In this document: piece by piece, positions 17,263 to 25,100 of the stretch
Layout of the letters: each line of letters opens with the position of its first letter
Numbering within the stretch: position 1 is the first letter of the stretch
NCBI RefSeq assembly: GCF_003002065.1
Contig: NZ_PVZG01000010.1
Span: 186,001 to 250,000 of the forward strand
From: Pseudosporangium ferrugineum
GTDB lineage: Bacteria; Actinomycetota; Actinomycetes; Mycobacteriales; Micromonosporaceae
Direction: 5' to 3'
DNA: 64,000 nt
The notes under the pieces: model-generated
What the model saw: only the letters and a program-made list of their open reading frames with translations
What the model was told of the DNA's origin: nothing
The model's database searches: none
Made by a program: the position numbers and the translations under genes

Positions 17263-18585
17263 CTATCCGGGCGTGTGGGACGGCTTGATCACCTGCGTCT
17301 CCTCGCCGTCGGAGGGTTCGGCCGGGCCGGGGATCACCTGGGTCCGCTCGTCACCCTGGGGCGAGATCACGAACGCCGTGGTGTCGTCGTCCTCGTCCTC
17401 GTCGTCGTCGAAGCCCGGGACCGGATTGCTGCTGCGGCGACGCGGCCGCTTCACCGGAATGACCTGGGTCGGCTCGGAGTCGTCGGCCTCCCCCGCCGCC
17501 GTCTCCACCGGCGCGTCAGCCCCCGCCTCCTCGGCGAGTCGAGCCTCCTCGGCCTTCCGCGCCTCCTCAGCCTTACGCGCTTCCTCGGCCTTGCGGGCCT
17601 CTTCAGCCTTGCGCGCTTCCTCGGCCTTGCGGGCCTCTTCAGCCTTGCGCGCTTCCTCGGCCTTGCGGGCCTCTTCAGCCTTACGGGCCTCCTCGGCCAG
17701 GCGCGCCTCCTCCGCCTTGCGAGCCTCTTCGGCCTTGCGCGCCTCTTCCGCCAGGCGCGCTTCCTCCGCCTTGCGAGCCTCCTCCGCGCGGCGCGCTTCC
17801 TCGGCCTTGCGAGCCTCCTCCGCCAGGCGCGCTTCCTCGGCCTTGCGGGCTTCCTCCGCCAGGCGGGCCTCCTCGGCGCGGCGGGCCTTCTCCTCGGCGT
17901 ACGTGCGGGCGTGCTCCCGGATCACCGCGGACTCGGCGCCCGCGCGGTCGAGCCAGATCTCCCAGCGGCGCTGCATCGGGCGGATCAGCCCGCCGCCCAC
18001 GCCGACGATCACCACGCCGGCGACCGTGGCCAGGACCGCGATCAGGACGGGCTGGGTCACCGCCGTCGCGATGTGGACCTGCTCGAGGGCGGCGATGATG
18101 CCGAGGGCGACGATCAGCCAGTACGCCACCTGGGCCAGCACCCGCCCGTACGCGAGGCCGCCCAGCGCGCTGCCGATCAGGTCGCGGACCGCGCCGCCGA
18201 TCGCCGCGGCGACCACGATGATGACGATGGCCACGAAGGCCCGGGGCAGCCAGGCGATCAGCGCCGTGAGCAGGTCGCTGACCGCGTTGGGCCCCCAGAT
18301 GCCGAAGGCGAGCTGGATGGCGAAGAGCAGCACCGCGTAGAAGGCGATCTTGGCGCACAGGTCGCTGGGCTCCAGCCGGCCGCCGAGGGCGCGCCCCATC
18401 GCGCCGCGTTCCACCGCGCGGTCGAAGCCCACCCGGTGCAGGGTCTTGGCGACGACCGTACGCCCGAGCCGGGCCAGCACGTAGCCGATGAGCAGGATCG
18501 CCACGAAAGCGACCGCCGTGGGAACGAACAGCAGCACGGAACGCCACATGTCGCCGAGCGCGTCGCCCAGATCCGAGCCGTTCAT
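17263..18585 (-). CDS. Mechanosensitive-channel-like membrane protein with (xAEEAR)20 tail
   Basis: 440 residues from the ATG at 18585, with GAGGAG upstream (the open frame reaches 18672). Five hydrophobic helices cover about residues 12-205. They include YVLARLGRTVVAKTL and two YW/G-rich helices typical of the TM-helix repeats of MscS-related actinobacterial proteins. A basic linker (MQRRWEIWLDRAGAE) leads into about 135 residues of uninterrupted charged helix with 20 hexapeptides xAEEAR (x mostly K, also L or R). The last 100 residues are acidic and disordered, with TQVIP, TQVIP and TQVIK repeated and DDDTTAFVI. Expected role: a membrane tension channel or scaffold with a long cytoplasmic rod. 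No true MscS beta domain is visible. Confidence 0.8.
   Translation of the reverse strand: MNGSDLGDALGDMWRSVLLFVPTAVAFVAILLIGYVLARLGRTVVAKTLHRVGFDRAVERGAMGRALGGRLEPSDLCAKIAFYAVLLFAIQLAFGIWGPNAVSDLLTALIAWLPRAFVAIVIIVVAAAIGGAVRDLIGSALGGLAYGRVLAQVAYWLIVALGIIAALEQVHIATAVTQPVLIAVLATVAGVVIVGVGGGLIRPMQRRWEIWLDRAGAESAVIREHARTYAEEKARRAEEARLAEEARKAEEARLAEEARKAEEARRAEEARKAEEARLAEEARKAEEARKAEEARLAEEARKAEEARKAEEARKAEEARKAEEARKAEEARKAEEARKAEEARKAEEARLAEEAGADAPVETAAGEADDSEPTQVIPVKRPRRRSSNPVPGFDDDEDEDDDTTAFVISPQGDERTQVIPGPAEPSDGEETQVIKPSHTPG
17521..17880 (-). repeat. 20 x 18-bp coding repeat, with a 36-bp higher-order unit
   Basis: Exactly twenty 18-base units code for xAEEAR. Inside, 36-base units at 17575-17610, 17611-17646 and 17647-17682 are identical except for the first base of the first copy. 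This is a sign of recent duplication by slippage or recombination. The synonymous codons differ in other units, so part of the array is older. Confidence 0.92.
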
Positions 18586-18768
18586 CGTTCTCCTCGTCAG
18601 AATGGGGGGCAGGCCTGAGAAGAGGTTAGATCGGCGCTCCCAGCCCCGCAGCGGCCCGGGCCCGGCAGGCACATCGGGTCAGGTGTGGCGCATGGGGCTC
18701 CCCCGCGCGTACCGGGTAGAACCGGACGTCCGTACAGTGGCCCCATCGTCCGAATGGCCGAGGCGGGC

Positions 18769-24208: not shown

Positions 24209-24256
24209 TGTCAACCCGGGTTGACACCGCGCGAGCTGTCAACGTAAGTTGACAGC
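24209..24256 (+). promoter_or_regulatory. Twin palindromic operators overlapping a leaderless promoter
   Basis: Two 18-bp inverted repeats are present: TGTCAACCCGGGTTGACA (24209-24226) and TGTCAACGTAAGTTGACA (24237-24254). They share the half-site TGTCAAC and their centres are 28 bp apart. The first ends in TTGACA, a perfect -35 box. After 18 bases comes TAAGTT (24245-24250), a plausible -10, and 6 bases later the ATG at 24257. No ribosome binding site exists. The operators therefore cover both promoter elements, as expected for repression, perhaps by the HTH protein they precede. Confidence 0.85.
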
Positions 24257-24493
24257 ATGACCGAAGCAACCGATCTGGCCGCCGCCGCGGGCAGCACCGA
24301 TCCCCGGGTCGGGCTGCGCGCGGTGGTGGCGCTGCGCCGCCTCCTGGAGGGCCTCGAGCACCTCCAGGTGGCCAACGCCCGCCGCAAGGGCTGGTCCTGG
24401 CAGGAGATCGCGGACGCCCTCGAGGTGACCCGCCAGGGCGTGCACAAGAAACACGCGAACCGCGTGCCGATGCAGGACCCACGGGAGGGCTGA
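24257..24493 (+). CDS. Small HTH protein, possible autoregulator of the Clp_N operon
   Basis: 78 residues. The core RKGWSWQEIADALEVTRQGVHKKHAN is a helix-turn-helix (here shown in parts: WSWQEIADALEVTRQGV and HKKHAN); the recognition helix is rich in polar residues. The preceding helix LRAVVALRRLLEGLEHLQ likely dimerises. The gene is followed one base later by a Clp N-domain protein, an arrangement I recall from Streptomyces. The palindromic operators directly upstream make autoregulation likely, but this is inferred. Confidence 0.85.
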   Translation: MTEATDLAAAAGSTDPRVGLRAVVALRRLLEGLEHLQVANARRKGWSWQEIADALEVTRQGVHKKHANRVPMQDPREG

Positions 24494-24494
24494 G

Positions 24495-25100
24495 ATGTTC
24501 GAGCGATTCACCCACGCCGCGCGCGAGGTCGTCGTCCGCGCCAAGACCGAGGCGCTCGACCTCGGCCAGGCGCCGGTCGGCACCGAGCACACTCTGCTGG
24601 CCCTGCTGGCCGACCCCACGATCGCGGCGGCGCCCGCCCTCAAGGGCCTCGACGCCCGCACCGTCCGGGCCGAGATCATCCGCCGCGTGGGCACCGGCAC
24701 CGCCGACCCGGCGGCACTCGCCGACCCCGACGACGCCGACCGCGAGGCGCTCAAGGCCATCGGCATCGACCTGGACGCGGTCCGCCGGGCGATCGAGGAG
24801 AACTTCGGACCGGGCTCACTGCACCTGCCCCGCCCGGCGGCCCGCAAGCGCAAGGGCCTGATGCGACGCCTCTCCGGCAGCAACCACACCCCGCTCTCCC
24901 CCCGCAACAAGAAGGTGCTGGAGCTGTCCCTGCGCGAGGCCCTGCGGCTCAAGCACAACTTCATCGCCCCGGAGCACATCCTGCTGGGCCTGCTGCGCGA
25001 GGGAAACGGCCTGGCCGCCCAGATCCTGTCCGCCAACGGCGTCGACTTCACCGCCCTCCGCGACGACGCGACCCGCTCCCTCAAGTCGGCAGCCGCTTGA
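24495..25100 (+). CDS. Stand-alone Clp N-terminal (double repeat) domain protein
   Basis: 201 residues with two Clp_N motifs: FERFTHAAREVVVRAKTEAL...GTEHTLLALL, and SPRNKKVLELSLREALRLKHNF...PEHILLGLLREGNGLAAQIL. There is no ATPase domain. A basic linker (RPAARKRKGLMRRLSG) joins the halves. In ClpC/ClpA the N domain receives adaptors and substrates, so a free copy may act as an adaptor, decoy or regulator of ClpC-ClpP. It starts one base after the HTH stop. Its last 20 bases overlap the convergent GNAT gene. Confidence 0.88.
   Translation: MFERFTHAAREVVVRAKTEALDLGQAPVGTEHTLLALLADPTIAAAPALKGLDARTVRAEIIRRVGTGTADPAALADPDDADREALKAIGIDLDAVRRAIEENFGPGSLHLPRPAARKRKGLMRRLSGSNHTPLSPRNKKVLELSLREALRLKHNFIAPEHILLGLLREGNGLAAQILSANGVDFTALRDDATRSLKSAAA

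Follow-up and report, generated by a model that had tools for sequence, protein, structure and literature searches.

The locus described here is probably a split, two-gene version of the actinobacterial ClpC2 switch, in which a small helix-turn-helix (HTH) protein would repress its own promoter, a ligand would lift this repression, and a free Clp_N protein would act as a decoy. It lies in a 64,000-nucleotide stretch of the Pseudosporangium ferrugineum genome, the whole of which is called the window, and its features (window coordinates) are as follows.

24209–24226, forward strand: distal palindrome TGTCAACCCGGGTTGACA (TGTCAAC-CCGG-GTTGACA), operator-like, with perfect arms, the right one containing the −35
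24221–24226, forward strand: −35 TTGACA, a perfect hexamer inside the right arm of the distal palindrome
24237–24254, forward strand: proximal palindrome TGTCAACGTAAGTTGACA (TGTCAAC-GTAA-GTTGACA), operator-like, with perfect arms
24245–24250, forward strand: putative −10 TAAGTT (TANNNT), 18 bp from the −35 and ending 6 nt before the ATG
24257, forward strand: predicted leaderless start, from the sequence
24257–24493, forward strand: HTH protein of 78 aa, predicted repressor of its own promoter (ORF, AF2 model, profile match to the ClpC2 N-terminal domain)
24483–24489, forward strand: Shine-Dalgarno-like GGGAGGG before the Clp_N gene, from the sequence
24495–25100, forward strand: free double Clp_N protein of 201 aa, a ClpC N-domain without ATPase (ORF, Pfam, PDB match, AF2/Foldseek)

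The centres of the two palindromes are 28 bp apart, and the proximal one ends 2 nt upstream of the ATG of the HTH gene at 24257. An earlier sequence-only reading had described two inverted repeats with the shared half-site TGTCAAC at this distance, and this was confirmed: the arms are perfect and, with up to two mismatches allowed, these are the sole two matches in the window, where 0.03 are expected. Two matches were obtained in none of 100 shuffles of the window. The pattern GTCAACN{3,6}GTTGAC occurs six times in the 8.65-Mb genome, the window pair accounting for two of these occurrences, and the reversed pattern, used as a control, was absent from this genome and from every one of 67 genomes of the genus.

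The layout is conserved well beyond the window. A collection scan gave at least 437 relatives, the best 80 of which (named loci) were analysed; among these 80, the nearest belong to Amorphoplanes, a name resolved by the taxonomy to Actinoplanes, with 97% HTH identity. Clp_N is encoded downstream of the HTH gene in all of these best 80 loci (tblastn), each time as a separate ORF whose start lies between −4 and +3 nt relative to the HTH stop codon, and the identity to the window proteins ranges from 67 to 97% for the HTH and from about 32 to 70% for Clp_N. Within 75 nt upstream, both palindromes with a four-base spacer (N4) are present with at least 10 of 12 arm letters in 79 of the 80 loci. Two exact N4 palindromes were found in 56 loci, one in 12 and none in 12; the loci without an exact palindrome match 10 or 11 of the 12 arm letters at each of the two positions, and among those with one, 11 have a partner with 11/12 letters and L037 has a partner with 8/12. 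No exact palindrome with another spacer (2–8) was detected in the 75 nt upstream of the 80 loci, and the highest N4 score among 1261 control windows was 10, reached once. The palindromes are thus kept upstream of orthologous HTH/Clp_N pairs, and the loss of the sites in orthologues, named in the sequence-only reading as a refutation, was not seen. Phylum-wide, the 30 best HTH matches (own genome included) all have Clp_N just downstream, and the split-HTH profile matched 102 of 296 genomes, a count that includes fused and other proteins. Some observations count against the main reading: no in-frame HTH–Clp_N fusion of the split type was found in the 30 loci; one N4 twin (L240) lies 64 nt from the HTH start, with no Clp_N found in the available 1.2 kb downstream; and the P. 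ferrugineum genome encodes two further HTH relatives (L159 and L160; frames of 228 and 128 aa) with no exact palindromes in the upstream stretch inspected.

The sequence-only reading had also placed a promoter within the palindromes. Its −35 is a perfect TTGACA; the proposed −10 is less clear-cut, as TAAGTT agrees with TATAAT at 3/6 positions and a plain sigma-70 consensus scan at this promoter was negative. This negative scan is weak evidence against the −10 and is outweighed by the conservation of TANNNT, which TAAGTT fits, in the proximal site. The spacing of six bases between TAAGTT and the ATG is seen as described, and no Shine-Dalgarno sequence is visible upstream of the HTH gene. The promoter geometry was compared over distinct twins in the fetched loci with an ORF start 0–4 nt after the proximal palindrome; identical stretches were counted once, twins without such an ORF were dropped, classes were assigned by sequence pattern, and the related species among the rows are not independent. 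The 152 rows comprise 88 split HTH, 24 alpha/beta hydrolase, 19 fused ClpC2, 4 DUF998, 2 beta-lactamase-like, 4 labelled Ada/AlkA and 11 other twins; among the last, L106 is an HTH missed by the pattern, and others resemble opposite-strand frames. TANNNT is found in the proximal spacer of 86/88 split HTH, 24/24 hydrolase, 19/19 fused ClpC2, 4/4 DUF998 and 2/2 beta-lactamase-like twins, and at the distal site of 3/88, 3/24, 1/19, 0/4 and 0/2, respectively. In all 135 classified twins with the proximal TANNNT, the −35 and −10 are 17 or 18 bp apart, and the −10 stands 6 or 7 nt from the ATG, a distance partly fixed by the 0–4 nt selection. The palindromes of the hydrolase class stand one base further apart (gap of 10–11 versus mostly 9–10) and the TA comes one base earlier, so that the promoter spacing is kept. 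This comparison provides good evidence that the two boxes would form a real promoter with a leaderless start, and the fixed geometry across twins is a new observation.

Much of this design has a published counterpart. According to the available passages on mycobacterial ClpC2, this protein binds the operator CGTCAAC-n5-GTTGACG, located 1–2 nt before the ORF and, in many of the compared species, repeated over the putative −35/−10 (Taylor et al., 2023; PMC10030653). The same passages present a leaderless transcript as the authors' suggestion, report self-repression and its relief by cyclomarin, and call ClpC2, which takes up cyclomarin, a molecular sponge (PMC10030653). An excerpt of a 2026 study states that, of three ClpC1-binding peptides, the cyclomarin analogue alone induces ClpC2 (PMC12913811). 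The name itself can mislead, as in the part available of a Streptomyces paper ClpC2 denotes a full Clp-ATPase. Since twin palindromes, leaderless transcript, autorepression and sponge role are described in those passages for a homologue, the autoregulated decoy switch that the sequence-only reading considered undescribed is largely known already (PMC10030653). The window locus resembles ClpC2 (Rv2667/M. smegmatis) in having Clp_N without ATPase, an HTH-type partner domain, GTCAAC/GTTGAC half-sites, two sites over the −35/−10 and, by sequence only, a leaderless start 1–2 nt past the proximal site; the autorepression and sponge role shown for ClpC2 are predicted for the split pair. The two differ in that ClpC2 joins HTH and Clp_N in one polypeptide, while the window has two ORFs 1 nt apart, and in that the ClpC2 operator has an N5 spacer and outer bases C/G, while that of the window has N4 and T/A. 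No published description of a split HTH/Clp_N pair was found in searches of an open-licence library, the Clp_N passage available from PMC7159879 dealing with other systems, and the split variant with N4 spacing is new.

The relationship of the HTH protein to ClpC2 emerges from profile comparisons. Its Pfam search returned general HTH families alone, under their cut-offs; the AF2 model (mean pLDDT 90.8) has four helices (2–11, 16–43, 48–55 and 59–66), and Foldseek gave no match with E ≤ 0.001, so the fold alone proves nothing here. The split-HTH profile matches 8ADA, the crystal chain of the ClpC2 N-terminal domain, with E 0.0096, and hhalign of the split HTH against fused N-termini gave 97.8% and E 1.1e-12 over 45 columns, with thin alignments. 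Judged from these alignments, the N-terminal domain of ClpC2 is the same HTH as the split protein. R59/Q60 of the HTH protein align with the Arg-Gln pair of the DNA-bound TipsytheTRex immunity repressor (7R6R), which we take to be the base-contacting R45/Q46 by our own count, assuming a 20-residue tag; the site of this phage repressor presumably contains TGTCAA. The repressor, from a cluster A mycobacteriophage, is matched by the profile with E 0.0011, ranks first with Foldseek at a non-significant E 0.73 and starts its recognition helix with GVTRQAV, resembling GVSRQAV. In the published passages, its R45 and Q46 contact guanines, R45 being essential and Q46 not, and it differs from the HTH protein in being monomeric, in carrying a second domain that binds DNA and in having an asymmetric site of 13 bp (PMC9283540). 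The stoperator sequence is absent from the available parts of PMC9283540 and PMC6550527. Another relative, the RelI antitoxin (Rv2664; PDB 9SDC), is a short HTH of the ClpC2-related family (profile E 1.2e-4) that differs in having the RelS toxin as partner, with the toxin gene first; in the accessible text its authors report that they found neither upstream inverted repeats nor evidence that it binds DNA (PMC13284704). A RelS/BrnT-like toxin neighbour is absent from the HTH operon, the adjoining gene being Clp_N.

The comparison also bears on how ClpC2 recognises DNA. Aligned to the fused N-termini, the 8ADA chain covers positions 1–72 and breaks off at MGV, immediately ahead of the conserved (S/T)(K/R)QA(A/V)Q, the recognition-helix equivalent. 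Because this chain stops just short of the recognition helix, it is probably the HTH, and not Clp_N as published, that reads DNA in ClpC2. The ClpC2 article, in the passages available, mentions that proteolysis took place in the drop and attributes DNA binding to the Clp_N arginines R185/R189; it also reports weaker binding by the dimer mutant and by the CTD alone, cited there as support for the need of a dimer (PMC10030653). This weaker binding would be in favour of the HTH reading DNA, whereas the reduced binding of the R185A/R189A mutant counts against it (PMC10030653). The presence of an HTH in ClpC2 is not new, since an HTH region is noted in PMC13284704, which in its available text does not point out the conflict with the CTD model.

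The second gene begins 1 nt after the HTH stop codon. Clp_N (Pfam E 5.9e-27) is the sole family above the cut-off in the 201-aa ORF, with no AAA+ modules, and the PDB matches include ClpC1 NTD (E 7.9e-31) and ClpC2 CTD 8AD9 (E 5.6e-12). For the AF2 model (pLDDT 83.6), the best Foldseek match is ClpC1 NTD 3WDB (E 9.3e-11, TM 0.86 by target), and the ClpC2 CTD structures 8AD9 and 8B9O give TM 0.65–0.74. ORFs, Pfam and Foldseek thus agree with the earlier description of the operon as a 78-residue HTH and a free double Clp N-domain. Like the ClpC1 N-terminal domain, the window protein has Clp_N in two repeats, and most of its pocket residues agree with those of that domain; it differs in being a separate small protein without AAA+ modules. 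It is nearer to ClpC1 NTD than to ClpC2 CTD, which is a point against the split-ClpC2 reading. The pocket positions, in ClpC1 numbering, are kept in most of 81 split Clp_N proteins (F2 in 76, F80 in 73, E89 in 77 and R93 in 79), and this conservation supports a putative ligand role in the family. The window protein keeps F2 and E89 and has Leu at F80, which is a further difference from ClpC2 and a further point against the split-ClpC2 reading.

Split and fused systems occur side by side. Besides the split N4 pair, the P. ferrugineum genome encodes a fused ClpC2 (L144, on contig 1) that has two N5 palindromes, and thus has one twin of each kind. Exact N4 twins were found in 11 of 396 phylum genomes, one each, all upstream of a split-type HTH; exact N5 twins were found in 21 of the 396 (23 twins). 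Of the 21 N5-twin loci fetched, 19 precede fused ClpC2 and two (L264 and L269) do not; of the two left out, G292:C45 and G055:C105, the former belongs to ClpC2. In L270 the start is 48 nt downstream of the N5 twin. Among 16 fused HTH–Clp_N proteins, 13 have two exact N5 sites, L151 has one, and L153 and L154 have none. With N4 before split HTH and N5 before fused ClpC2, one base of spacing sets apart two paralogous systems within the same cell. Not every N5 site belongs to ClpC2, because a lone N5 palindrome precedes another HTH gene in the P. ferrugineum genome: GGATWAQIAEVLGLASRQAAEQ (G000:C5:328736, L236), 2 nt upstream of the ATG for an HTH paralogue of 159 aa, which may be one more self-regulated member that has no Clp_N. 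In L264 (G292:C23), an ORF of 140 aa follows the N5 twin after 1 nt and is divergent from an ORF of 415 aa that we read as FAD-monooxygenase-like; this twin is possibly a second ClpC2 target. The Streptomyces-like L154 (G228) encodes a divergent fused HTH–Clp_N protein with no GTCAAC palindrome and has another inverted repeat around TTGACA/TGTCAA just before a start codon. A third small Clp_N protein of 235 aa is encoded outside the window in the P. ferrugineum genome (G000:C10, L274:1066–1773); it starts with a CcdA-like ribbon-helix-helix (Pfam CcdA E 2.4e-4, just under the cut-off), followed by Clp_N, so that on this domain assignment the sensor-like domain is combined here with another type of DNA-binding domain. 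Elsewhere in the window (17263–18672, minus strand), a 469-aa ORF has a membrane-like N-terminal part and then a long run of near-identical KAEEARLAEEA-type repeats.

Genomes of the genus also contain N4 twins at other genes. By our count, 66 of 67 have an N4 twin and 40 have two or more. With one exception, the extra twins fetched from these genomes precede genes for alpha/beta hydrolases (Abhydrolase_6 in the one tested), DUF998 proteins and beta-lactamase-fold proteins; several of the hydrolase twins are flanked on their opposite side by the start of Ada/AlkA genes. The exception, an N4 twin at 1044 in one sister genome (L198), precedes a 326-aa protein without a Pfam match. The shared N4 sites suggest that the same HTH may control these genes, and the extra twins in the sister genomes are a probable trans regulon, absent from the genome of the window, in which no extra N4 twin was found. 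A hydrolase target was sought in this genome as well and rejected, the best relative being 30% identical and the genome having no twin besides the two known ones.

It is proposed that the HTH protein would bind each palindrome as a dimer and would cover the −35 and −10 of its own leaderless promoter, leaving the operon silent in unstressed cells. The second, closely coupled gene would provide a free copy of the substrate- and drug-binding domain of ClpC. When Clp_N is occupied by a ClpC-directed peptide antibiotic or an unfolded protein, repression would be lifted and more of the domain made, the extra copies serving as a decoy for ClpC ligands. DNA binding, repression, HTH–Clp_N contact and ligand sensing are what we infer for the split pair, and its repressor part is supported by analogy with ClpC2, for which passages of PMC10030653 show self-repression at the same half-site. 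The compact, leaderless, self-regulated switch of the sequence-only reading is partly supported in this way and fits the conserved layout, sites and geometry. Of its two proposed roles for Clp_N, that of an adaptor found no support here; that of a decoy for ClpC is plausible in view of the sponge role demonstrated for fused ClpC2 in the passages available (PMC10030653). The separation of HTH and Clp_N into two chains counts against this proposal, in which ligand binding would have to reach the HTH.

The same separation favours an explanation in which the HTH self-repressor answers a signal other than a Clp_N ligand, e.g., its own degradation by ClpC/ClpP, and Clp_N is an adaptor or brake of ClpC and not a sponge. 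Stand-alone double Clp-N proteins exist in chloroplasts, where they have an accessory role, and two of them (4Y0B and 4Y0C) are among the PDB matches. We regard this explanation as unlikely, since ClpC2, as far as the accessible text describes it, joins sensing and repression in one chain, and the drug-pocket residues F2, F80 and E89 are kept in the large majority of the split Clp_N proteins. It is much less probable still that another regulator, such as the fused ClpC2 of the genome, binds the twins and that the HTH has other targets or is itself an antitoxin-like partner, as RelI is for RelS. ClpC2 reads the same half-site in the excerpts seen, and RelI, an HTH of the same family, has a toxin as its binding partner, its authors seeing no evidence in the available text that it binds DNA (PMC13284704). 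However, N4 stands before split HTHs, nearly all fused ClpC2 that have exact sites are preceded by N5, and the genome possesses one twin of each kind. To our knowledge, Clp_N is not a toxin fold. That the palindromes are a chance or functionless local repeat has their shortness and nothing else in its favour; it is refuted by the conservation of the sites in many genera and by the control windows, and the low number of matches expected in the window and the empty reversed-pattern control in each genus genome leave it a practically negligible probability.

The split ClpC2-type switch thus remains the preferred reading. A wider picture, in which the pair is a two-protein sensor of antibiotic or proteotoxic stress, with a trans regulon in sister species (alpha/beta hydrolase, DUF998 membrane protein, beta-lactamase-fold hydrolase and possibly divergent Ada/AlkA genes), insulation by N4/N5 spacing and DNA read by the HTH in both systems, all of these jointly, is put forward tentatively, as somewhat doubtful in its entirety. 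The locus is ordinary in principle; it is a distinct, conserved variant with a clean operator code, and it offers a testable correction to the published ClpC2 model, as the comparison of split and fused forms allows a direct and cheap test of the ClpC2 domain that reads DNA. Cyclomarin is one of the compounds against ClpC1, an essential drug target, and is blunted by ClpC2. The occurrence of another such switch in other actinomycete lineages, this one split, under an operator code of its own and with extra targets possible, suggests that ClpC ligands may be sensed more widely than by mycobacterial ClpC2.
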